Made by a program: the position numbers and the translations under genes
Notes under the pieces: generated by a model
The model's database searches: none
Told to the model about the DNA's origin: nothing
What the model saw: only the letters and a program-made list of their open reading frames with translations
Part shown: positions 6,513 through 26,216 of the stretch, piece by piece
Layout of the letters: each line of letters starts with the position of its first letter
Position numbering within the stretch: the stretch's first letter is position 1
NCBI RefSeq assembly: GCF_026625845.1
Contig: NZ_CP113066.1
Location: forward strand, 1,116,001-1,180,000
Origin: Agrococcus sp. SL85
GTDB taxonomy: Bacteria; Actinomycetota; Actinomycetes; Actinomycetales; Microbacteriaceae
Length of the DNA stretch: 64,000 nt
Reading direction: 5' to 3'

Positions 6513-7817
6513 ATGCGCGCAGGGACGGGCCGCCGGATGGCGGCGCTGACGACGATGGTCACGACGATCGCGGTGCTCGCCGCGTGCGCGCCGACGGAGG
6601 ATCCGGCAGAGGCGCCGACGGCGCCCCGCACGAGCTCGGCGCCGACGGCCGGGGCCGGCCCCGATCCGAGCGCCGCGCCGACGCCGACGGTCGCGCCGCA
6701 GGTGCCCGTGGTCACGCCGCCCGCCGCCTCGTCCGGCGCCGCCGAGCCGCTGCCGCTCGACCGCGTGGTGGAGTCGCAGGACGGCGCCGTGCGGCTGCAC
6801 GTCCCGTCCTCCTGGCCGGTCACCGACTCCAGCTGGCTCCAGACGGGGCGCGAGACGCCCAGCGACTGGATCAACAACCTCTTCGCAGTCGCCGAGGACG
6901 GCGAGCTCCACATCTCCTACCAGGAGGGCCCCGACTACGGCTCGGGCGCCTGGGAGGGCGAGACCTGGGGCATCGTCGACCGCATCGACGCCGGCGGCGG
7001 CCTCGAGGCCGTCGCCTGGTGGTCGCGCCACGGCGACGGCCTCCTGCAGCCGCAGCTGACGCTCGGGCCCGCCGTGGCACAGGGCGAGCGGCCCGTGCGC
7101 GCCGTGCCCTTCGGCGAGCAGGTGCGGCACCTCGCCGCCATGTTCTCGGCGCACCACGACATCGAGACCGTCGAGGAGGCCGAGCAGGTGCTCCACGGCG
7201 AGCAGGCGCAGACGGCGCTCGCGATCCTCGCCACCGCGGAGCTGCGCGACCTGCCGGCCCAGACCTTCCCCGCGTCCATGCTCGAGACCGTCGACGGCGA
7301 GCAGATGCTCCGCTACACGACGAAGAACGGCAGCTCCTCGTTCCTCGTGCCGCTCGACTGGACCATCGAGGACCACAGCCACGAGTTCACGCAGGGCGAC
7401 GGCCGTACCCGCTGGGAGAACAGCGTGTGGCTGTACGACGACCGCGACTACCCGCAGATGTACTACAGCGACTACCTCAGGTGGGACGAGTCGCACCGCG
7501 ACCAGCCCGGCTGGCGCCTGGGAGAGGCTCGCGAGACCGCGGACGGCTGGCGGGCGGCCATGTGGTCGCACGACTCCGGCACCTGGGAGTGGGAGCACAC
7601 GCTGGGCGTGTACCTGGCCGACGCGGGCAACGACGAGCCGCACCTGAGCAGCGCCTGCCGCGGCGACTTCTGCCGCAGCTTCTGGGGCGAGGGCACCGAC
7701 CGCGAGTACGGCGTCGTCGACCCCGACGAGTGGTTCGCCGGCGAGCGCGCCACCACCATGCTCACGCTGGTCGCATCGCTCGAGGCGCACCACGACGACT
7801 TCTACCGGATGCCCTGA
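6513..7817 (+). CDS. Lipoprotein of unknown function, first of three paralogues
   Basis: This 434-residue lipoprotein has the lipobox VLAAC (Cys25) and a long Thr/Ala/Pro tether. Two related halves each begin with a strand-like segment about a straight coding repeat: GAVRLHVPSSWPVTDSSW and GSSSFLVPLDWTIEDHSH. The C-terminus has a cysteine motif, CRGDFCRSF, also found in altered form in the next two genes. A purine-rich ribosome site (GGAGAGG) precedes the ATG at 6513. No enzymatic residues are recognised; surface or binding roles are possible. The direct-repeat array upstream suggests control by a response regulator. Confidence 0.7.
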   Translation: MRAGTGRRMAALTTMVTTIAVLAACAPTEDPAEAPTAPRTSSAPTAGAGPDPSAAPTPTVAPQVPVVTPPAASSGAAEPLPLDRVVESQDGAVRLHVPSSWPVTDSSWLQTGRETPSDWINNLFAVAEDGELHISYQEGPDYGSGAWEGETWGIVDRIDAGGGLEAVAWWSRHGDGLLQPQLTLGPAVAQGERPVRAVPFGEQVRHLAAMFSAHHDIETVEEAEQVLHGEQAQTALAILATAELRDLPAQTFPASMLETVDGEQMLRYTTKNGSSSFLVPLDWTIEDHSHEFTQGDGRTRWENSVWLYDDRDYPQMYYSDYLRWDESHRDQPGWRLGEARETADGWRAAMWSHDSGTWEWEHTLGVYLADAGNDEPHLSSACRGDFCRSFWGEGTDREYGVVDPDEWFAGERATTMLTLVASLEAHHDDFYRMP

Positions 7818-7846
7818 CGGGCCTCGAGCGACAGGAGATCGCCACC

Positions 7847-8662
7847 ATGACGACCAGCACAGCCGCCCGCCGCGGCGCCCGAGCAGCGCTCGCGGCCGCC
7901 GCATCCATCGCCCTGCTCGCCGGCTGCGCGTCGGCCGGGGAGGCCCCCGACGCAGCGCCCACGACCACGCCTACGCAGGCCGAGAGTCAGGCGCCCGCGC
8001 CGGCGCCGACCGCCAGCGCGACCCCCACCGCCGACCCTTCGCCCTCGCCCACCGCGACGGTGCGCCCGCCGGCGCCCGTCACCCCGCCCGGCGACCTGAC
8101 GCCCGTGCCCGACTCGGGCCCGCACGACCAGCCGCCTCAGCAGGTCGAGATCGATGGGCGGCAGTACACGCTCGAGCCCTCGTCGCTGGGCGGCGTCACG
8201 CTGCCGATGCCCGAGGGGTGGACGGCGGAGCGGCGGCAGTACGACGACGGCAACGGCGTCATGGACGTCCTCACCGTCATCGATGGGCGCGGCGACCCCG
8301 TCATCACCTACCTCGACGGCCCGGAATCGGCGATGTTCAACATCAACACCACCGACACGTGGGTCGAGGGCGAGTCGCGCTCGATGGGCGACGGGCTCGA
8401 GGTGGTCTCGTGGTCGTACGAGTTCGAGTACATGCCGCCGGACCTCTCGCTGCAGCAGGGCGTGGGCATGCGCGCGATCGGCCAGGAGGCGATCCCCGAC
8501 ACCCCCGTGTGCGTCGACGGCTTCTGCCGCCAGCTGAGCGGCTCGTTCCCCGACTGGTACACCGACATCCGCAGCGCCGAGGCGTGGTTCGCCAGCGACC
8601 TCAACGCGCAGATGCTCACGATCGTTGAGCACGCGCAGCTCCACGAGCGCAGCGACCGCTGA
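7847..8662 (+). CDS. Lipoprotein of unknown function, second paralogue
   Basis: This 271-residue lipoprotein has the lipobox LLAGC (Cys27) and a Pro/Thr/Ala tether to about residue 95. It contains a single folded unit (LGGVTLPMPEGWTAERRQYD to the end) that matches one half of the preceding protein, with the cysteine motif CVDGFCRQLSG before a conserved AEAWFASDLNAQMLTIV helix. It starts 29 bp after the upstream stop with a good ribosome site (ACAGGAGA), so the genes are likely co-transcribed. The function is unknown. Confidence 0.7.
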   Translation: MTTSTAARRGARAALAAAASIALLAGCASAGEAPDAAPTTTPTQAESQAPAPAPTASATPTADPSPSPTATVRPPAPVTPPGDLTPVPDSGPHDQPPQQVEIDGRQYTLEPSSLGGVTLPMPEGWTAERRQYDDGNGVMDVLTVIDGRGDPVITYLDGPESAMFNINTTDTWVEGESRSMGDGLEVVSWSYEFEYMPPDLSLQQGVGMRAIGQEAIPDTPVCVDGFCRQLSGSFPDWYTDIRSAEAWFASDLNAQMLTIVEHAQLHERSDR

Positions 8663-12233: not shown

Positions 12234-12989
12234 TCAGGCGCCGGCGGGCTGGATGCTCTCGGCGGCCGCGACGCGGCGACGCTTGGCGGGCTCGATGCCG
12301 GCGCGCTTGGCGAGCAGGGTGAAGAGGCCCTGGATGAGCTGCACGAGCACGAAGAGGATGATGACGACGCCCACGATGTGCACCCAGCTGTAGCGCTGCA
12401 TGCCGTAGGTGAGGGCGACGTTGCCGAGGCCGCCGCCGCCGACCACGCCGACCATCGCCGAGAAGTTGATGATCGAGGTGAGCGTGGTGGCGGCGCCCAG
12501 CAGGATCGCGGGGGTCGCCTGCGGCAGCAGCACGCGGCGCACGAGCAGCCAGCGCGAGGCGCCCAGCGACTCCGCCGCCTCGAACAGGCCGGGGTCGACC
12601 TCGCGCACCGCGATCTCGACGACGCGCACGAAGAATGGGATGGCCACGATCGTGAGCGGCACGATGGCGGGACCGGTGCCGATGAACGAGCCGAGCAGCA
12701 GGCGCGTGAACGGGATGAGCGCGATCATCAGCACGATGAACGGCACGGAGCGGCCGAGGTTCACGACGAAGCCGAGCACGGCGTTGATGCCGCGGCCGAG
12801 CGCGCGGCTGCCGAAGGGCGCCTCGAGGAAGCGGCCGCGCTCGGTGCCGACGAGCAGGATGCCGAGCGGCAGGCCGACGATCGTCGTGATGACCATCGCG
12901 ACGCCGACCATGTACAGGGTCTCGAGGGTGCCCTCGAGCAGCACCTGGATGAGGTTGGGCCAGAACTCCGGCGCGGTCGGGTCGATCAT
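12234..12989 (-). CDS. metI: Methionine ABC importer permease
   Basis: This 251-residue membrane protein has about five helices. The ABC permease loop is present as EVDPGLFEAAESLGASRWLL followed by VLLPQATPAILLG, the EAA-type contact with MetN. ETLYMVGVAMVITTIVGLPL at the N-terminus and GGLGNVALTYGMQRYSW are characteristic of MetI. Its ATG overlaps the metN stop by 4 bp. It has a C-terminal basic tail of about 25 residues beyond the usual family end (AKRRRVAAAE). Confidence 0.92.
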   Translation of the reverse strand: MIDPTAPEFWPNLIQVLLEGTLETLYMVGVAMVITTIVGLPLGILLVGTERGRFLEAPFGSRALGRGINAVLGFVVNLGRSVPFIVLMIALIPFTRLLLGSFIGTGPAIVPLTIVAIPFFVRVVEIAVREVDPGLFEAAESLGASRWLLVRRVLLPQATPAILLGAATTLTSIINFSAMVGVVGGGGLGNVALTYGMQRYSWVHIVGVVIILFVLVQLIQGLFTLLAKRAGIEPAKRRRVAAAESIQPAGA

Positions 12990-14008
12990 GCCGCCACCTC
13001 CGTGGTCTGCCGCGCGGTCGTGGCCGGGGCGACCTCCCAGGCCGTCACGCCGTGGTCGCCGAGCCGGTCGATGACGCGGCGGGCGGTGGTCTCGTCGCCG
13101 GGCACCGCGAGGCGGGTGCGGCCGGCCTGCACGCCGCCGATGGTCTCGAGGGCGGCGCCGAGGATGCTCAGGTCGAGCCCGAACTCGCGGGCGAGCTGCG
13201 CGATGACGGGGCGGTCGGCGCTGAGGTCGGCGTAGGTGACGTCGACGATGCGGTGACCGGGGATCGCGTGGGCCTCGCCCACGGGGAACAGCTCGGCGGC
13301 GACGCGGCTGTGCGGGGTGGTGATGAGCTGCTCGAGCGTGCCCTGCTCGACGACGCGGCCGTCCTCCATGAGGGCGGCGGCGTCGCAGATGCGCTTCACG
13401 ACCTCCATCTCGTGTGTGATGAGGAGGACGGTGAGGCCGAGCTCGCGGCTGAGGCGCTGGATGAGGTCGAGGATCTGGCGCGTCGTCTCGGGATCGAGGG
13501 CGCTCGTGGCCTCGTCGCTCAGCAGCACGTCGGGGCCGGAGGCGAGGGCGCGGGCGATGCCCACGCGCTGACGCTGGCCGCCGGAGAGCTGCGCGGGCTT
13601 GTCATCGGCCTTGTGCGCGAGGCCCACGAGGTCGAGCATCTCGAGGGCCTTGGGGCGGCGCTTGCTCTTCGCGGCGCCCGTCGCCTCGAGCGCGAACTCG
13701 ACGTTCTGCGCCACGGTGCGGTTGCCCACGAGGTTGAAGTGCTGGAACACCATGCCGATGCGGTGGCGCGCGGTGAGCAGCGCCTGGCCGCGCAGGCTCG
13801 TCACCTCGACGCCGTCGACGACGACGCGGCCGGAGTCGGGGCGCTCGAGGGCGTTGACGGTGCGCAGCAGCGTCGACTTGCCGGCGCCGGACTGACCGAC
13901 GACGCCGAAGATCTGGCCGCGCGCGACCTCGATGCTCACGTCGTCGAGGGCGACGACCGCATCGGGGCCGCCGCCGAAGCGGCGGCTCACGTGCTCGATG
14001 GAGATCAC
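12986..14008 (-). CDS. metN: Methionine ABC importer ATP-binding protein with NIL domain
   Basis: This 340-residue ATPase has Walker A GQSGAGKSTL, signature LSGGQRQRVG, Walker B VLLSDEATSALDP and H-loop LLITHEM. The C-terminal region after residue 250 (IVDVTYADLSADRPVIAQLA, ending VTAWEV) is the ferredoxin-like NIL domain that binds methionine and inhibits transport in MetN proteins. It has a GTG start at 14008 with GGAGCA eight bases upstream, and leads the metNIQ operon. No SAM riboswitch could be recognised in the 230 bp upstream, so control is unclear. The foreign island starts just beyond its 5' region. Confidence 0.93.
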   Translation of the reverse strand: MISIEHVSRRFGGGPDAVVALDDVSIEVARGQIFGVVGQSGAGKSTLLRTVNALERPDSGRVVVDGVEVTSLRGQALLTARHRIGMVFQHFNLVGNRTVAQNVEFALEATGAAKSKRRPKALEMLDLVGLAHKADDKPAQLSGGQRQRVGIARALASGPDVLLSDEATSALDPETTRQILDLIQRLSRELGLTVLLITHEMEVVKRICDAAALMEDGRVVEQGTLEQLITTPHSRVAAELFPVGEAHAIPGHRIVDVTYADLSADRPVIAQLAREFGLDLSILGAALETIGGVQAGRTRLAVPGDETTARRVIDRLGDHGVTAWEVAPATTARQTTEVAA

Positions 14009-14240: not shown

Positions 14241-15023
14241 ATGACGCTGCTTCCCTTCGAGTACCTCGGTGAGGGCTCGGATACCTCGGGCTCCGAGCAC
14301 TTCGACCGCCTGCGAGCCGGACTCGCCAAGGACGCATCCGTGCGGAGTGAAATCGAAGCTGCGATGCGACTCAACGTCGATCGGGTCAATCCCTCCGACC
14401 CCGGCAATCGATTCGTCGTGGGAGGCGCCGTAGAGTGGCTCATCGCCGCAGCAGCGTGGGCGCTCGGGGTCCTCACGATCCCCGGCGGGCACTCCACACG
14501 GGGGTTCGACCTCATGGATCTGCAGGATGCTGCCCGCGGTCTGTGGTCGGTCAAGGCACAAACGTCCGCGAACAAGGGATCGTTCCGCCTGACCAATGGT
14601 CTCGGCGGCAGCGGGAAGGGCTTCCAGGATCCGACTGTGTTCGTCTCCCCGCACCTGCCGGGGCTGGTGTTCATCGACCCAGCCCGACACAAGGATGCGG
14701 CGGAGGCTGTGCGTGTGAAGCCCGACGCCGTGGAGCTGCCGTTCGCTGCTGTCGCTAAGCACGCGCAGAGGCACCCGGAGTGCGTCGCCGTGATCGCCGC
14801 GCCGAAGAACGAGGGCCGAGGCGCCGAGAACCCGTTCCTCGCCTACGCGGAGACGATCGCGACTCCGGATCGCTTCCCGCGGCTCGCGACCATGTTCACG
14901 GCAGCGAAGCCGGCGACCTCCGGCCGTGCCGCGGAGGTCGCCGAACTGCTCTCGTTGAAGCAGTCGGGAGCGATCTCAGACGCTCAGTTCAACGCGCTCG
15001 TCAACCAAGTCGCTGGACTCTGA
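14241..15023 (+). CDS. Probable type II restriction endonuclease
   Basis: This 260-residue protein lies tail-to-tail with an m5C methyltransferase and overlaps it by 48 bp, the classic arrangement of a restriction enzyme and its protecting methylase. A possible PD-(D/E)XK core is GFDLMDL followed by LWSVKAQTS, where an acidic residue is replaced by Ser before the Lys, as in some divergent enzymes. The C-terminal 30 residues (AAEVAELLSLKQSGAISDAQ...) look like a SHOCT oligomerisation motif. No ribosome site precedes the ATG; a TAGCGT -10-like hexamer at 14228 suggests a leaderless transcript. The specificity is unknown. The role rests mainly on context. Confidence 0.65.
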   Translation: MTLLPFEYLGEGSDTSGSEHFDRLRAGLAKDASVRSEIEAAMRLNVDRVNPSDPGNRFVVGGAVEWLIAAAAWALGVLTIPGGHSTRGFDLMDLQDAARGLWSVKAQTSANKGSFRLTNGLGGSGKGFQDPTVFVSPHLPGLVFIDPARHKDAAEAVRVKPDAVELPFAAVAKHAQRHPECVAVIAAPKNEGRGAENPFLAYAETIATPDRFPRLATMFTAAKPATSGRAAEVAELLSLKQSGAISDAQFNALVNQVAGL

Positions 15024-16452
15024 CGCCGCTGCGCGGGCCTGGCCGGCCTTTACAGCGCGCTCGATCGGCTCGGTCGGGTTCGAGGGAGCCTTGCTGATCG
15101 CCTCGTAGATCGCTCGGCCCTTGGGCGTCGCGAGCAGCAGGTCCTTGTCGCGCTCCACGTGGGCCTTCAGCACGTTCCAGACCACGCCGGTGTTCACGCC
15201 GTTGCCCATCTGCTTGTAGGTCAGTGCGTCGCGCTGCGGGCCGAAGTCGAACGAGTCCGGAAGTCCCTGCATGCGCGCTGCTTCGCGGGGCGCGAGACGC
15301 CGCTTCAGCGGGCCGAGGATCGGGGTCTGCGTGATCGCGACCAGAGCGGGCAGGTGTGTCATCTTCTTGGCTCGGATGCCCGATGGCCGCAGCGAGATGG
15401 CGCAGTCCCACAGGCTCTCGGCGTCCTGGGCCTGCCACTCGAGCTTCTGACGGCTCTCGGGGAAGTTCCTCGTCTTCCGGAGCCAGCGGTCGAGCCACTT
15501 CGCGTCGGCGCGCTCGCGCAGGGCGTCGTAGAGCCTCCCAGTTCTTCTCGAGAAAGTTCGCCTTCCAAGCGGGCACTCGGTCATAGCCGTTCGGGTACAT
15601 CAGGTCGTTCCGGCGCGCTCGCGATGCGGTCCAGACCTGCGCCCAGATCGGGAAGCCGGGCAGGGGGCGGGCGGTCTCACCAGCAGCATCGGCGTCAGCG
15701 ATCCGGAAGGCGCGCACAAACTGCACCCACTCGTCCCAGTGCGCGATCCACCGGCGTTCGTCGGCGCTCAACTCGGTGCCCGCCGGCGCCTCCGTCTCGG
15801 CCGTCCGCAGGTCAAGCTGGAGATCCCAGGGGTGGTGCATCCTCGACGCGTCGGGCAGGGCGATCGGTTCGATGTCGGGGTCCGCGACCATGCCATCGGG
15901 CACGAGGGTTGCGGTGATGAAGACTCGCTCACGCACCTGAGGGCTGCCGCCGTGCTCGGGCTTGATCTGATGCGGCGAGACGATCGCGGGCGCAGACGAC
16001 ACCTGGTAGCCCGCACTGCGCAGGCGCTCGATGATCACCTCCCACTCGTGGACGTGGCGAGGGCCGACGAGATTGCGAACGTTCTCCAGCACGACGACGG
16101 TCGGGCGCCGCTCGCGGACGATCTCCATGATGTTGAAGAAGAGCGTGCCGCGGGTCTCGTCCATGCCTCGCTGCGCGCCCGACTTCGAGAACGGCTGGCA
16201 GGGGAAGCCTCCGGCGACGATGTCGTGCTCGGGCACGTTCATGACGCCGTCATCAGCGTCCTTGGTCACGTCGCCGAGAGCGGAGACACCCCAGTTGCGC
16301 TCGTACACAGCGGCTGCGTGCTTGTCGATCTCGACCGCGTAGGCGTGCTCGCCACCAAGACCAGACAGTGCTGCCGCGAACCCGCCCACGCCAGCGAACA
16401 GGTCCGCGAAGTGGAAGGGCGCATCACCGGCGTCGTGAGGGAGCTCGAACAT
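14976..16452 (-). pseudogene. DNA (cytosine-5) methyltransferase with a 1-base frameshift
   Basis: The first 300 or so residues are in one frame with motif I FADLFAGVGGFAAAL, motif IV GGFPCQPFSKSG (catalytic Cys), motif VI ENVRN and motif VIII QVRERVF. The rest (LYDALRERADAKWLDRWLRK, then motif IX REAARMQGLPDSF and motif X MGNGVN) is in the next frame. Removing one C of the CC at 15534-15535 restores a 491-residue enzyme with FLEKNWELYDALRERADAKW across the junction. It would methylate cytosine in the site cut by the convergent restriction enzyme. A leaderless start is likely: TAAGCT lies 6 bases before the ATG. If the frameshift is real, the host would be unprotected, so sequencing error or an inactive nuclease must be considered. 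Confidence 0.85.
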
Positions 16453-16819: not shown

Positions 16820-17929
16820 ATGCCAGAGATCGACTTCCAGACGATTGAACTGGAACACCTCTATTTCGACCCGGAGAACCCCCGACTGCCGCTTAGCGTT
16901 GACGGTGACGACGAGCGTCAGGTGCTCGAATGGATGCTTGACGATGCCGGCCTGGTTGAATTGATGGGGTCGATCGCTGTCAACGGTTATTTTGCTGCGG
17001 AGCCGCTCCTCGTCACGAAAAGGAAGAGCGGCGACGGATACTGGGTGCTCGAGGGGAATCGACGTCTGGCAGCGGTTCGGTTGCTTAACGAGCCTTCGCT
17101 GGCGCCGATAAGGCGCCAGGCGGTCCATAAAATCGCTCATGAGGTTGCTGACGGTGTCGAGTTGACGAATTTGCCGTGTGCGGTGTTCGAGCGGCGTGAA
17201 GACGTGCTGGACTACCTGGGATACCGCCACATCACAGGCGTAAAACAATGGGAGCCTGAGGCGAAAGCGCGTTACCTGCAGTCGCTGTACCTATTGCATA
17301 GGGACTCGGCCGGGGGTGACATCTACCGCGTCATAGCGCGCCTGATCGGTAGTCGCTCCGATTATGTTGTGCGCCTTCTCGCGTCGCTCGCTCTTCATGA
17401 TCAAATGCGAACAGATCAGCGCCTCGCGCAGCAACTTGCGGCGAGCGCGATTCCCTTCTCGTTGCTGACCCTGGCAATGAGTTACGAGACTATCGTCAAA
17501 TACCTGGGTTTAGATGCGCTGGAGGTTGCGGTAGTCGAATCAGAACAGGGCCCCGCTGATGCTGAAGCGCTCCGCGACGTAGCAACCTGGCTCTACCGAG
17601 AACTTCCGGATCTCGGGCGCACGCAATTGGGTGAGAGCCACAACATGAAACTGCTCGCCCAATCTCTATCCAATGATCGGGGCGTGGATGCGCTTCGAAA
17701 CGGTGAGATAGTGGAGGAGGCTGCACGTGCCTCTATCGATCCAGACGCGCTCATCGTCAGGGCGATTAGGCAGTCGATCGAGCGCCTCGTGATCGCCCAG
17801 AGTTTGCTTCATCGATCCGAAGTCACAGATGCCACTCTGCAGGCCGTCGAGGAGATCGAGGACCTTGTCGACCAACTAGGCGGCGCGATCCGTCGAAAAG
17901 CCAAGCGCAATATGGTCCAGGATGCTTAA
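16820..17929 (+). CDS. ParB/Srx-fold protein of a putative defence module
   Basis: This 369-residue protein has an N-terminal ParB-like domain: ELEHLYFDPENPRLPLSVDG, then GYFAAEPLLVTKR and the nucleotide-binding box VLEGNRRLAAVRLL. A KorB/ParB-like helix-turn-helix (IARLIGSRSDYVVRLL) lies near residues 175-190, and the C-terminal half is helical. ParB domains bind CTP in chromosome partition, but in accessory islands such proteins occur with nucleases. The ATG at 16820 is chosen for its GAGGAG ribosome site. The gene overlaps the next one by 8 bp. Codon use is clearly richer in A/T than the flanking chromosome, a sign of transfer. No ParA is present, so plasmid partition is unlikely. Confidence 0.75.
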   Translation: MPEIDFQTIELEHLYFDPENPRLPLSVDGDDERQVLEWMLDDAGLVELMGSIAVNGYFAAEPLLVTKRKSGDGYWVLEGNRRLAAVRLLNEPSLAPIRRQAVHKIAHEVADGVELTNLPCAVFERREDVLDYLGYRHITGVKQWEPEAKARYLQSLYLLHRDSAGGDIYRVIARLIGSRSDYVVRLLASLALHDQMRTDQRLAQQLAASAIPFSLLTLAMSYETIVKYLGLDALEVAVVESEQGPADAEALRDVATWLYRELPDLGRTQLGESHNMKLLAQSLSNDRGVDALRNGEIVEEAARASIDPDALIVRAIRQSIERLVIAQSLLHRSEVTDATLQAVEEIEDLVDQLGGAIRRKAKRNMVQDA

Positions 17930-19001
17930 GCACGTTCGGATCCCGAAGCAGAGTGAGTTGCACCACTGGGCGGACTTCGTCGAACTGAGGTGTCTGGTCG
18001 ATGTCGACGGCCGCTTCAGTGGCGAGCGCCTGCTGACCGCTAAGAAGCAGGGCATCGACACGGGTGAGGGCGTCGCTGAAGCGCAGGACCAAAGTGAAAC
18101 CGACGCGATCGATCAATTGCTTGGTAGCGATGGTCCGCAGCTCGGCGATCTCCTCGTCGACTTCGGGGCGAAAGCGGATGACGACGAAGTCGAGCCCGAG
18201 GCAGACGAGGAGGAAGATTCGTTCGGCAGAAGTGCTGAAGTCGCGGACAATCTCGACAACTGGGCGAAGAGGATCTTCGTTCTGTTAGGAGAGCGGGCTG
18301 ATTCGCTTGGAGTGGCGTACCCTTTCGATGTCGATACGCCGGGGATGACAATAGTATCGCGCGACAAAGACGACATGCGCCGCCGATATGTCTTCTTTTT
18401 GATAGCTTCGTCGCTGGGGCGACTAGATGCGTCGCCTCAGGCAAGAGTCCCTGCCGAGTTCGAGCGTGTTTCGCTCCAATTGTTGCGCATTATGTTGCCA
18501 GTGCCTTTCGAGATTGACCATTTCGGCACTGCGGGAAGGGGTGGGAGTAGGTTCGACGGAGGCATCTTCGATCGGATCTGCCAACTTGCGGATGTCCTTA
18601 ATGGCGCCGTATTGTGCTCGCGCGATACTTTCCATCCCAAAGACAACGGCGACAATGGCTTGGATATTGTTGCGTGGCTACCGTATGCGGATCCTGGCCA
18701 GGGAATTGCATCATTTTTTTGTCAATGCGCGTGCGGAATTGAGTGGGAGCCGAAGCAGGCTGAGCCTGCCTACAATCGCTGGCGTCGTTACATCGATCTT
18801 GCTAGTCCGCCGGCCACCGTCGTCATTACTCCCCAATATTTTCGTCAGTATCGCGAGCACTGGTATGTGGACGAAGAAGTCTCGGGAATCCTACTCGACC
18901 GCCTCCGCTGCCTCCGCTTGACTACAGAGACTTCCGAGCTCTCGGAATATGAGCGATCGGTCGTGGAAGCAGTGTGGAAGCCGCATCCCGATTTGGGCTA
19001 A
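17922..19001 (+). CDS. Predicted PD-(D/E)XK-like nuclease, partner of the ParB-like protein
   Basis: This 359-residue protein starts inside the 3' end of the ParB-like gene (8-bp overlap). After an acidic linker (EVEPEADEEED, about residues 87-97) comes a helical part and then a segment that resembles a restriction-endonuclease-like core: FERVSLQLLRIMLP, GDNGLDIVAWLPY and FFCQCACGIEWEPK, i.e. a candidate E...D...Q-x-C-x-C-G arrangement in which Gln replaces the usual second acid. I infer a DNA-acting effector, with the ParB-like protein as regulator or DNA reader. The family is not one I can name. The sequence is visibly A/T-rich for this genome (for example the T7 run near 18713). Confidence 0.6.
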   Translation: MLKHVRIPKQSELHHWADFVELRCLVDVDGRFSGERLLTAKKQGIDTGEGVAEAQDQSETDAIDQLLGSDGPQLGDLLVDFGAKADDDEVEPEADEEEDSFGRSAEVADNLDNWAKRIFVLLGERADSLGVAYPFDVDTPGMTIVSRDKDDMRRRYVFFLIASSLGRLDASPQARVPAEFERVSLQLLRIMLPVPFEIDHFGTAGRGGSRFDGGIFDRICQLADVLNGAVLCSRDTFHPKDNGDNGLDIVAWLPYADPGQGIASFFCQCACGIEWEPKQAEPAYNRWRRYIDLASPPATVVITPQYFRQYREHWYVDEEVSGILLDRLRCLRLTTETSELSEYERSVVEAVWKPHPDLG

Positions 19002-19086: not shown

Positions 19087-19515
19087 TCACCAATACCCCA
19101 CCGAATAGTCCTTCAGGAACACCCCGAACAGGTCCTCGCCGGCCTCGCCGCGAACGATCGGGTCGTACGCGCGGGCAGCGCCGTCGACGAGATCCAAAGG
19201 AGCGTGGAAGCCTTCCTCCGCCAGCCGCACCTTCGTGAAGTGCGGGCGCTCGTCGGTGATCGAGCCGGTGTCGACGGCGGTCATGAGGATGCGGTCCGAC
19301 TCGAACATCTCGCGGGCGCTCGTGCGCGTGAGCATGTTGAGCGCGGCCTTCGCCATGTTCGTGTGCGGGTGGCCGGGGCCCTTGTAGCCGCGGCCGAACA
19401 CGCCCTCCATCGCCGAGACGTTCACGACGTAGGTGCGGCGCGCGCCGGAGGCGGCCATCGCCGGCCGCAGCTTCGACACGAGCAGGAACGGCGCCGTCAT
19501 GTTCGCCAGCTGCAC
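19087..19515 (-). pseudogene. 3' fragment of a zinc-ribbon SDR gene
   Basis: These 142 codons match the last 142 codons of the intact SDR gene at 24618 with only about 4 amino-acid changes (GSITDE for GWITDE, ARAYDP for ARVYDP, DYSVGYW for DYAVGAW), but roughly 7% of bases differ, mostly at third positions. The fragment keeps the proper stop and begins abruptly at GTGCAGCTGGC, so the first 390 codons are missing. It marks the right end of the foreign island. It contains YVVNVSAMEGVFG, part of the active-site region, but no cofactor-binding domain, so it cannot be a working enzyme. Confidence 0.9.
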
Positions 19516-19779: not shown

Positions 19780-21072
19780 TCAGCCCGCGAAGAACGCGCC
19801 GGCCGCCCGCGTCAGGTCGGCCAGGTCGTTGACGCCCGCCAGCTCGCGCGCCGAGTGCATCGAGAGGATCGGGATGCCCACGTCGACCGTGCGGATGCCG
19901 AGGCGCGTGGCCGTGATCGGGCCGATCGTCGAGCCGCACGGCACCGTGTTGTTCGAGACGAACTCCTGTGAGGCGACGCCTGCAGCCGAGCACCAGCCGT
20001 GCCAGGCCGCGGCGCCCGCGCCGTCGGTCGCGTAGCGCTGGTTGGCGTTGATCTTCAGGATCGGGCCGGAGCCGAGCAGCGGCAGCACCTCGGGGTCGTG
20101 CTTCTCGGCGAAGTTCGGGTGCACCGAGTGGCCCACGTCGCTCGAGACGTGCCAGGAGGCGGCGAGCGCGCGCATCCGCTCCTCGCGCGAGGCGCCGAGG
20201 CCCAGGCCGATGCGCTCGAGCACGTCCTCCAGGAACGGGCCGGCCGCGCCCGAGCGGGTGGCCGATCCGATCTCCTCGTGGTCGAAGATCGCGAGCACGG
20301 GGATGTGCGGGGCGTCGAAGCCGTCGGCGGCCGCGGCGAGCGCGACGGCGCCCGCGTGCACGCTCGCGAGGTCGTCGAGGCGGCCGGCGGCGAAGAACGC
20401 GTCGTCCTTGCCGAACACGGCGCCGCGCGCCGCATCCGCCGTGACGATGTCGTAGCCGCGGATGCGCGCGGCGTCGACGCCGGCGGATGCCGCGAGCTCG
20501 CCCAGCAGGTCGGCCGAGTCGGCCTGGCCGAGGCCCCAGACGGGCTGCGTGTGGCGCTGGCGGTCGAGGGTGAGCCCGTCGTTCGCGGCGCGGTCGAGGT
20601 GGATCGCCAGCTGCGGCAGGCGCAGCAGCGGGCCGGAGTCGGCGAGCGCCTCGGTGCCGTCGTCGAGCACGAGGCGGCCGGCGAGGCGCAGCTCGCGGTC
20701 GAGCCACGAGTTCAGCAGCGGCCCGCCGTAGACCTCCACGCCCGCCTGCAGCCAGCCGAAGCGGCCGGTGGTGGGCTGGGGCTTCAGCTTGAAGCCGGGG
20801 GAGTCGGTGTGGGCGCCGAAGACGCGCACGGGCGTCGTCGCCGCGGCGCCGGCGGGCACGATCCACGCGATGAGCGCGCCGTCGCGCACCACGAGGTAGC
20901 GGCCTGGGACTTGCGGCCAGGCCTCGGTCTCGTCGAGCGGCCGGAAGCCCGCGGCCTCGAGGCGGCGCGCCACCTCGGCCGCCGCGTGGAAGCTCGAGGG
21001 GGAGGCGGCGACGAAGTCGGCGAGGTCCTCGGCGTGGGCGAGCGGCTCGACGGTCGTGGGCGCTGCGGGCAC
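19780..21072 (-). CDS. M18 family aminopeptidase
   Basis: This 430-residue cytoplasmic zinc peptidase removes N-terminal (typically acidic) residues from peptides. The metal-binding His-Asp is in VFGAHTDSPGFKLKP, the catalytic and zinc-binding glutamates are in AIFDHEEIGS, another Asp is in VSSDVGHSVHPN, and the last His is in ILSMHSARELAG. The length matches bacterial ApeB-type enzymes. It has a GTG start at 21072 with TGGAGG about eight bases upstream. It lies between the DUF3054 gene and the small SH3-like gene on the same strand. Confidence 0.92.
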   Translation of the reverse strand: MPAAPTTVEPLAHAEDLADFVAASPSSFHAAAEVARRLEAAGFRPLDETEAWPQVPGRYLVVRDGALIAWIVPAGAAATTPVRVFGAHTDSPGFKLKPQPTTGRFGWLQAGVEVYGGPLLNSWLDRELRLAGRLVLDDGTEALADSGPLLRLPQLAIHLDRAANDGLTLDRQRHTQPVWGLGQADSADLLGELAASAGVDAARIRGYDIVTADAARGAVFGKDDAFFAAGRLDDLASVHAGAVALAAAADGFDAPHIPVLAIFDHEEIGSATRSGAAGPFLEDVLERIGLGLGASREERMRALAASWHVSSDVGHSVHPNFAEKHDPEVLPLLGSGPILKINANQRYATDGAGAAAWHGWCSAAGVASQEFVSNNTVPCGSTIGPITATRLGIRTVDVGIPILSMHSARELAGVNDLADLTRAAGAFFAG

Positions 21073-24617: not shown

Positions 24618-26216
24618 CTACCAGGCGCCGACCGCGTAGTCCTTCAGGAAGACGCCGAAGAGGTCCTCGCCGGCCTCGCCGCGCACGATCGGGTCGTAGA
24701 CGCGGGCGGCGCCGTCGACGAGGTCGAGGGGCGCGTGGAAGCCCTCCTCGGCCAGCCGCACCTTCGTGAAGTGCGGGCGCTCATCCGTGATCCAGCCGGT
24801 GTCGACGGCGGTCATGAGGATGCGGTCGGACTCGAACATCTCGCGCGCGCTCGTGCGCGTCAGCATGTTGAGCGCCGCCTTCGCCATGTTCGTGTGCGGG
24901 TGGCCGGGGCCCTTGTAGCCGCGGCCGAAGACGCCCTCCATCGCCGAGACGTTGACGACGTAGGTGCGGCGCGCGCCCGACGCTGCCATCGCGGGCCGCA
25001 GCTTCGACACGAGCAGGAACGGCGCCGTCATGTTCGCCAGCTGCACCTCGAGCATCTCGATCGGCTCGACCTGGTCGACGTGCTGCGTCCAGGAGTTCAC
25101 GTGCTCCTCGTCGGGCACGAGCCCGCCCGCGTCGATCGCGGTGCCCGCGGCCATGCGCTCGAGCGACGACGATCCTGCCGTCATCGCCTCGCGCGCGAGC
25201 CGCTGCGCGTCGAGCGCGTCGGCCTCGCGGGCGGCGCTCGCAAGGATCGGGTGGTTCGCCACCGAGGCGGCGAGCGCGAGCGGATGCGCGTCGTTCGTGT
25301 GGCCGAAGGTCACGAGCTCGGGCAGGGGTCCGCCGCCCGTCGACGACTCCGGCAGCGGCGCGAGCTCCGCCTGCACGAGCGGCTGGTAGGCGCCGGGGGA
25401 GCGGCGCACGGTCTGCGCCGCGTTGTTGATGAGGATGTCGAGGGGGCCGGCGCCGGCGACCTCCTCGGCGAGGCCGATGACCTGCGCCGGGTCGCGGAGG
25501 TCGATGCCCACGACCTTGAGGCGGTCGATCCACTCCGGCGCATCCGGCAGCGACGAGAAGCGCCGCACCGCGTCGCGCGGGAAGCGGGTGGTGATCGTGG
25601 TGTGGGCGCCGTCGCGCAGCAGCCGCAGCGCGATGTGCATGCCGATCTTCGCGCGGCCGCCCGTGAGCAGGGCGCGCTTGCCGGTGAGATCCGTGCGGGC
25701 GTCGCGCTTCGCGTGGCTCATCGCCGCGCAGTCGGGGCAGAGCTGGTGGTAGAACGCGTCGACGAGCGTGTACGGCTGCTTGCAGATGTAGCAGCCGCGG
25801 GCCTTCAGGAGCGTGCCGGCGGTGGGGGCCACGACGCGGGTCGCGAGCGGGATGCCCCGGGTCTCGTCGTCGATGCGGTCGGGGGCGCCCGTGGCGGTCG
25901 ACTCGACGACGGCGCGGTCGGCGGCGGCGATGCGGGCGCGCTTCTCGCGGCGACCCGCCTGCTTCACCTCGCGGAACATGCGCGCGGTCGCCTGCCGGAC
26001 GGCCACGTAGTGCGGGTCGTCGCGGTCCATGCCGTGCAGGGTGTCGAGCACGCGGATGGCGGTGGCGACGTCCTCGGCGGAGACGGTGGCCGCAGCCTCG
26101 GCGGCTGCTGCGGCCTCCGATGCGGGCGCCCCGTCGTGCGCGTCGGCGGCCGTCGCGGGCGCCTCGTCGGGGCGCGCGGGCGCACCGGAGTCGGGCTCAG
26201 CAGGGGTGGGAGGCAC
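24618..26216 (-). CDS. Zinc-ribbon SDR-family oxidoreductase
   Basis: This 532-residue protein has three parts. First comes a low-complexity acidic/Ala start and a helical segment (VAVRQATARMFREVKQAGRR). Next is a zinc ribbon near residues 135-160 (CYICKQPYTLVD...CPDC). Last is a short-chain dehydrogenase domain with cofactor motif ALLTGGRAKIGMHIA, LDILINNAAQT, an active-site region YVVNVSAMEGVF and a Tyr-x-x-x-Lys-like GYKGPGHPHTNMAK. It is longer than usual SDRs because of the N-terminal parts, which are common in actinobacteria. The substrate is unknown. A diverged 3' fragment of a second copy lies at 19087, at the island edge. Confidence 0.85.
   Translation of the reverse strand: MPPTPAEPDSGAPARPDEAPATAADAHDGAPASEAAAAAEAAATVSAEDVATAIRVLDTLHGMDRDDPHYVAVRQATARMFREVKQAGRREKRARIAAADRAVVESTATGAPDRIDDETRGIPLATRVVAPTAGTLLKARGCYICKQPYTLVDAFYHQLCPDCAAMSHAKRDARTDLTGKRALLTGGRAKIGMHIALRLLRDGAHTTITTRFPRDAVRRFSSLPDAPEWIDRLKVVGIDLRDPAQVIGLAEEVAGAGPLDILINNAAQTVRRSPGAYQPLVQAELAPLPESSTGGGPLPELVTFGHTNDAHPLALAASVANHPILASAAREADALDAQRLAREAMTAGSSSLERMAAGTAIDAGGLVPDEEHVNSWTQHVDQVEPIEMLEVQLANMTAPFLLVSKLRPAMAASGARRTYVVNVSAMEGVFGRGYKGPGHPHTNMAKAALNMLTRTSAREMFESDRILMTAVDTGWITDERPHFTKVRLAEEGFHAPLDLVDGAARVYDPIVRGEAGEDLFGVFLKDYAVGAW

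Follow-up and report, generated by a model that had tools for sequence, protein, structure and literature searches.

A pair of overlapping genes in Agrococcus sp. SL85, encoding a ParB-like protein and a second protein that we call X, probably forms the part that attacks DNA in an anti-phage module coupled to DNA modification, in which a mark on host DNA would spare the host while the ParB-like protein, upon binding a nucleoside triphosphate (NTP), would recruit X for cleavage. The genes lie in the stretch of 64,000 nucleotides that was analysed (the window; positions 1116001-1180000 of a single-contig genome of 2.7 Mb). Computational analysis established the pair itself, the folds and conserved residues of its proteins, their obligate linkage, their usual modification partner and their location in a P2-like defence hotspot. 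Since the two genes travel together, usually beside a DNA-marking enzyme, they probably represent the component that cuts DNA in an antiviral system not yet described. A first-pass annotation of the window had proposed the coupled pair as a candidate for such a system, and this candidacy is supported: X was predicted to have a nuclease fold, and partition or core-genome settings are not where the pair is mainly found. The strongest clue to function, the modification partner, was absent from that annotation. If true, our reading adds a widespread, unnamed defence module and implies that a ParB-type molecular switch can be the specificity part of a restriction system; moreover, the pair may supply the restriction partner of those Dnd loci to which no restriction component has been assigned.

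The ParB-like protein and X

According to model and fold matches, the ParB-like protein consists of an N-terminal domain of the ParB/Srx NTPase fold, a middle domain with a helix-turn-helix (HTH) and C-terminal helices; the first-pass annotation had recognised the ParB/Srx fold and the HTH. Both the NTPase fold and the Box II motif G-x-R-R are present (fold match and alignment); in 110 aligned rows G79, N80 and R82 were conserved throughout, and E78 and R81 in 109. The Box III region reads R-H-x-[TS]-G (R136 in 107, H137 in 110, T/S139 in 108 and G140 in 110 of the 110 rows), where canonical ParB presumably has E-N-x-x-R. The PD-Lambda-5_A models of PADLOC matched the protein with E 8.8e-25 over residues 6-154. 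These models are mostly 428-613 positions long, and their matches stop by residue 156, one at 206 (25 of the 26 families are listed).

Neither protein had a Pfam match at E values up to 1, both had only weak NCBIfam matches far under the cut-off, and X had no match in PADLOC. In PHROGs the ParB-like protein belongs to PHROG 3694 (E 3.1e-82) and X to PHROG 3984, both families of unknown function. The 8-base overlap between the genes and their location in lower-GC DNA, both reported earlier, were confirmed: the GC content is 57.7% in the ParB gene and 56.7% in the X gene compared with 73.2% in the whole window, and it is 67.6% in the adjoining methyltransferase gene and 66.5% in the open reading frame (ORF) that starts at 14241. 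No signal exceeding shuffled sequences was found in a scan for promoters and terminators.

The C-terminal domain of X is predicted to adopt the alpha-beta-beta-beta-alpha-beta core of PD-(D/E)XK nucleases, which agrees with the earlier call of a nuclease with Gln in the second catalytic place. The putative active-site residues D248 and Q268, invariant in all 116 aligned rows, align with an Asp and a Gln of MspJI that we take to be catalytic in that enzyme. Position 270 (Q+2) is A, G, T or S throughout these rows, and the Lys two residues after Gln is thus missing in X; 115 of them retain a Lys further on, K278 at Q+10, which lies on the helix that follows the strand. The fold nearest to the catalytic domain is that of MspJI, and MspJI and AspBHI were among the best fold matches. 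The best alignments to this family span X residues 130-347, and no match was seen for its N-terminal SRA-like domain, a reader of 5-methylcytosine, which in itself shows nothing.

Linkage of the pair and its modification partner

In tblastn searches of 50,697 phage records and 72,556 plasmid records, X was detected in 11 and 1, and relatives of the ParB-like protein in 17 and 8, respectively. The two genes are adjacent in three phages, WPhi (orf98/orf96), Pseudomonas phage D14A and Escherichia phage 12474III, as well as in a phage contig of faecal origin and in a plasmid of Persicobacter. Contigs were scanned with the ParB-like protein as the only query, because conservation along the alignment of X was nowhere strong enough to support a pattern scan. 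Viral contigs, scanned with a profile, yielded 156 relatives, of which the best 80 were kept. When each species was represented by one genome, the scan yielded at least 558, the best 80 of which are the bacterial loci described below. In loci L001-L088, the window copy included, 88 of the 89 ParB ORFs are followed by X on the same strand, and the sole one without X (L074) stops 17 bases from the contig end. X is present in 78 of the 80 bacterial loci; of the other two, L146 has fragmentary cytosine-5 (C5) methyltransferase pieces in the place of X, and L153 is cut by the contig end. ParB and X are an obligate pair. The cassette occurs in prophages, P2-like ones among them, in a few plasmids and on the chromosomes of several bacterial phyla, as judged from record names. 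A single-protein genome scan with X gave no match, the source genome was the only one of 246 from Actinomycetota in which X was found, and ParB occurred in 2 of 60 related genomes (24 of the same genus), namely the source and G247 (26% identity). As a separate observation, the X ORF is broken or interrupted while ParB stays open in L018 (6056-8197) and L156 (6270-7122).

The ParB-like protein does have the ParB fold, and DNA segregation is the function of many ParB proteins (PMC12704722, in the part of its text available). Nevertheless, a function in plasmid or phage partition or in housekeeping has almost no probability, given that a nuclease is linked to the ParB-like protein, that X occurs in just one plasmid record, that the hotspot location is variable and that ParB is confined to two of the 60 related genomes. 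In addition, no ParA was seen in the neighbouring ORFs inspected, although no systematic ParA scan was made. The first-pass annotation had named partition and core-genome settings as those that would argue against a defence role; the pair is found instead beside methyltransferases and Dnd genes and in a P2-like hotspot.

A C5 methyltransferase gene in convergent orientation comes after the pair in both WPhi and D14A. The X proteins of phage, prophage and plasmid loci fell into 53 clusters at 80% identity, and for 47 of these one neighbouring ORF, chosen by eye, was checked with Pfam and hidden Markov model tests. PF00145 was matched in 45 clusters and the D12 adenine family (MethyltransfD12) in one, from Vibrio (L007); in the 47th (L087) a C5 gene lies upstream of the pair, as judged by sequence, and C5 enzymes thus accompany 46 of the 47 clusters. 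The six remaining clusters are the window's own, two in L002, and those of L006, L008 and L056, the last being cut by a contig end. No methyltransferase lies directly beside the pair in the sequence inspected of L002, L006 and L008, and in L008 an annotated one is found about 6 kb upstream. An adjacent C5 gene is present in 114 loci, counting near-copies, and it is convergent in 91, downstream on the same strand in 18 and upstream in 5.

The 80 bacterial loci comprise 39 with a C5 gene within 3 kb and 21 with Dnd genes within 5 kb; none has both and 20 have neither. The first 500 bp, amounting to 75 kb of flank, hold 38 C5 genes, compared with 5 in the remaining 857 kb. The Dnd-linked loci were found from seeds in L141, L132 and L110, and L123 and L138 rely on a DptH-like gene alone; in example loci NCBIfam matches to DndC, DndD and DptH were above the cut-offs and that to DndE was under its own. 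Of the 20 loci without either partner, two carry a more distant C5 gene, at 3.5 and 4.5 kb. Another 11 are close to a contig end, with less than about 1.1 kb of flank on one side or both, and 7 are partnerless despite ample flank.

In a quick tree of 116 pairs, with a few long branches and with 18 unlabelled rows left uncounted, the 19 Dnd-linked pairs required 1 change (support 100; shuffled mean 17.6) and the 78 C5-linked pairs 2 changes (shuffled mean 18.4). The Dnd-linked pairs appear in this tree as one clade. The numbers of changes imply that the type of partner is stably inherited, with at least one switch between 5-methylcytosine (5mC) and phosphorothioate.

Several features of the partner genes were recorded besides. 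The DndE ORF of Dnd-linked loci (about 520 amino acids; L141 6403-7974) joins a DndE-like N-terminus to a region similar to DptH, and similar DndE/DptH-type ORFs occur in L136, L140, L149, L152, L158, L159 and L168. In L021 a 273-residue ORF without Pfam match (7044-7865) lies between the pair and the C5 methyltransferase gene, giving a four-gene variant. The 'DruM' labels that PADLOC placed on C5 enzymes were rejected as evidence of Druantia, because many C5 models match these enzymes.

The partner genes also bear on two alternatives. The pair could carry out a type IV-like restriction of foreign modified DNA, with the neighbouring enzyme making a different mark and being a mere co-traveller. 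MspJI and AspBHI are among the top fold matches of X, and the available text of PMC12373910 describes GmrSD as joining a ParB-like domain and a nuclease and acting on T-even phages. However, the adjacency of modification genes far exceeds the flank background and tracks the tree, and a co-traveller should not show the observed alternation of C5 and Dnd, which never occur together in the 80 loci. We therefore regard this alternative as quite improbable. According to the second alternative, the pair belongs to the modification side as a regulator or loader of the modification enzyme, X being a subunit that binds DNA or a nuclease that has degenerated. A loader is usually unnecessary for C5 methyltransferases, the C5 enzyme of WPhi is near full-length (PF00145 positions 2-322 of 324), and X keeps its Asp and Gln in every row and its Lys in all but one, all of which leave a loader role with little probability. 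Nevertheless, ParB-superfamily proteins of modification systems are described in the available portions of two papers: DndB, which a reappraisal of Dnd names as the ParB protein of Dnd loci (PMC10853773), and DpdB, a ParB-like ATPase (PMC12839542).

Defence hotspots and the window locus

Among 5426 complete E. coli genomes, 140 contain a match to the WPhi cassette. At least 80% of the cassette at 99% identity or more was found in 103 of the 5426, E. coli W among them, which makes it immediately testable. In the other 37 genomes the match covers the methyltransferase alone (among the matches listed, 60 of the 140), and the two of these inspected (L193, L194) have a diverged pair beside the methyltransferase. 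In 6 of 6 E. coli regions inspected the cassette lies between the phage portal and replication endonuclease genes, both annotated as incomplete in L191; this position in P2 is described as a defence hotspot, with old and tin, in the part of PMC9519451 available. X is interrupted by an insertion sequence in L190 and split in L192. There are 105 places of X in 103 genomes compared with 139 places of the methyltransferase in 139 genomes, counts in which rows are partly listed and small frameshifts invisible. These losses of X give a weak hint that the mark protects, the natural knock-outs being too few to test self-protection.

In the genus of the source strain, MetN and an aminopeptidase gene enclose an interval of variable length (about 5.5 kb to 65 kb in the 12 relatives where one contig carries both), in which several relatives have C5 methyltransferases (L180-L187). 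In G247 it holds the diverged pair and a convergent C5 gene. The 5.5-kb hotspot of G253 carries a 679-residue ORF (L180 4430-6469) that is DUF262-like by eye.

In the window the C5 methyltransferase gene is divergent from the ParB gene, with 367 bp from start to start. Its N-terminal frame, 44% identical to the same-genus Dcm of L186, is homologous down to about 15.54 kb and then out of frame, and the C-terminal part shows 51-52% identity to the corresponding part of four Dcm proteins from the genus. Thus, the gene is frameshifted in the assembly at about 15.55 kb (region 15500-15620), with both parts Dcm-homologous. A sequencing error and real decay would look alike in the assembly; if the frameshift is real, the pair would be either independent of this enzyme or inactive. 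Of the restriction-modification pair that the first-pass annotation had placed here, the methyltransferase gene stands, in this frameshifted form, and the presumed restriction gene (the ORF at 14241-15023) has no family match. In two other genomes of the genus the same hotspot contains an ORF similar to this one (84% and 75% identity). The role of ORF 14241-15023 as the cognate restriction enzyme is unproven, as the same-genus copy is 84% identical, yet the Dcm there only 44%.

Table 1. Features of the window (positions counted from its first nucleotide)
Feature	Position	Strand	Basis or remark
ParB-like gene, 369 aa (amino acids)	16820..17929	+	ORF; model and fold matches; PHROG 3694; PD-Lambda-5_A match
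X gene, 359 aa	17922..19001	+	N-terminal helical domain (possibly winged helix); C-terminal PD-(D/E)XK domain, about residues 148-346
ParB/X gene overlap, 8 bases	17922..17929	+	
E78-G79-N80-R81-R82 codons, equivalent of ParB Box II/P-motif	17051..17065	+	alignment conservation
D248 codon, predicted catalytic Asp	18663..18665	+	116/116 rows; aligns with MspJI Asp
Q268 codon, Gln at second catalytic place	18723..18725	+	116/116 rows; aligns with MspJI Gln
K278 codon, predicted catalytic Lys at Q+10	18753..18755	+	115/116 rows
Cytosine-5 DNA methyltransferase, N-terminal frame	15001..16452	-	PF00145 E 6.5e-54, residues 13-186
Methyltransferase, C-terminal part, other frame	14976..15584	-	PF00145 positions 271-322
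Uncharacterised ORF, 260 aa	14241..15023	+	no Pfam, NCBIfam or PADLOC match
MetN	12986-14008		left flank of genus hotspot
Aminopeptidase	19780-20970		right flank of genus hotspot

Relatives of ORF 14241-15023 also occur with Dcm and without the ParB-X pair in L184 (3554-7167) and L186 (14999-18985), and the same loci contain a conserved ORF of 369-408 residues that belongs to no known Pfam family. Beside the island, a 419-bp 3' piece of a short-chain dehydrogenase gene is duplicated (19097-19515 and 24628-25046), and this piece is 93% identical to the full dehydrogenase gene at 24618-26216.

Proposed mechanism and comparison with known systems

We propose that the DNA-modification enzyme encoded next door marks host DNA; this would usually be a C5 methyltransferase, in one clade the phosphorothioation enzymes of Dnd and in one case an N6-adenine methyltransferase. 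The ParB-like protein, having an NTPase fold and HTH as do ParB, KorB and Noc, would be an NTP-switched, sequence-reading DNA binder that loads at unmarked sites of incoming DNA. Binding of NTP would change its state, and the switched protein would recruit or license X, the partner nuclease with an MspJI-like PD-(D/E)XK core, to cut, while marked host DNA would escape. We infer that the mark protects rather than activates. A more specific version, which we put forward only tentatively and hold to be somewhat doubtful, takes the ParB clamp as the specificity or licensing subunit and the clamp-nuclease core as agnostic to the mark (5mC, N6-methyladenine or phosphorothioate), which would block loading, closing or sliding of the clamp.

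The missing Lys at Q+2 lowers, without ending, the likely membership of X in the PD-(D/E)XK superfamily, among other members of which a migrated Lys occurs. Methyltransferases that are 90-99% identical go with pairs whose median identity is 43% for ParB and 33% for X (99 comparisons, near-copies kept); between WPhi and 12474III, for example, the identities are 97.8% for the methyltransferase, 31.9% for ParB and 24.0% for X. Such near-identical methyltransferases with diverged pairs would argue against a simple one-target scheme.

In another account the mark activates: the ParB-like protein would read the host's own 5mC or phosphorothioate and license X, and the module would be silent where the mark is missing. 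This is consistent with MspJI, a modification-dependent enzyme, being the nearest fold to X, and with the linkage of Dnd genes to part of the ParB-X family. It also has a precedent in SspE and DndI, where a ParB-superfamily domain is joined to a nuclease and the host mark raises NTPase activity; without the mark SspE has no nuclease activity, and DndI is reported to differ in this respect (PMC11662687, as far as its text is available). We consider this account unlikely, though more probable than the other alternatives to protection by the mark.

No description of the ParB-X pair was found in the literature, which was covered mostly as the starts of abstracts, with figures and supplements outside; a hotspot figure may depict the pair without naming it. 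In the main text of PMC9122126 the word ParB does not occur.

Among the known systems closest to the module is PD-lambda-5, which shields E. coli from phages (PMC9519451, available part) and of which we read the module as a split cousin. The two share a homologous N-terminal ParB/Srx domain (hhalign probability 99.4 over 182 columns against a PD-Lambda-5_A-like protein of Marinobacter phage AS1), occurrence in prophages and a linked DNA methyltransferase, and the methyltransferase of the Vibrio pair in L007 is of the PD-Lambda-5_B type (315.7 bits). This type was seen only in L007 among the loci examined, the window enzyme being a C5 methyltransferase. However, the A subunit of PD-lambda-5 fuses the ParB domain to a further 300 residues or so, in which X had no match in the one example compared, whereas the effector here is a separate PD-(D/E)XK protein. 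The partner in the two PD-lambda-5 examples inspected (L188 and L189, by PADLOC and Pfam) is a D12 adenine methyltransferase, and here it is mostly C5 or Dnd.

SspE, DndI and GmrSD likewise couple a ParB-superfamily NTPase to a DNA nuclease (PMC11662687 and PMC12373910, in their available parts), and SspE and DndI work with phosphorothioation (PMC11662687, same part). They combine DUF262 with HNH/DUF1524, whereas the pair has no Pfam match to DUF262 or DUF1524 at E values up to 1, its nuclease is a separate PD-(D/E)XK protein, and its ParB protein has an HTH of the ParB/KorB/Noc type. MspJI and AspBHI are nearest to the catalytic domain of X in both fold and active-site sequence, but the aligned MspJI stretch has its Lys at Q+2 and not at Q+10, and X is accompanied by a ParB partner and in most cases by a linked modification enzyme. 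The cytidine triphosphate (CTP)-switch clamps ParB, KorB and Noc share with the ParB-like protein the NTPase-fold and HTH architecture and the G-[NE]-R-R motif; they differ from it in the Box III region, and no ParA was seen alongside the pair.

As in type II restriction-modification, a methyltransferase and a predicted endonuclease form a compact cassette, but here a ParB-like partner is obligatory and the modification chemistry differs between lineages. That a modification enzyme is encoded with the predicted nuclease holds at the level of the family, with exceptions, and in the window it is present as a frameshifted copy. We file modification-coupled ParB-nuclease defence as an already known kind of system, of which the ParB-X pair is a new variety.
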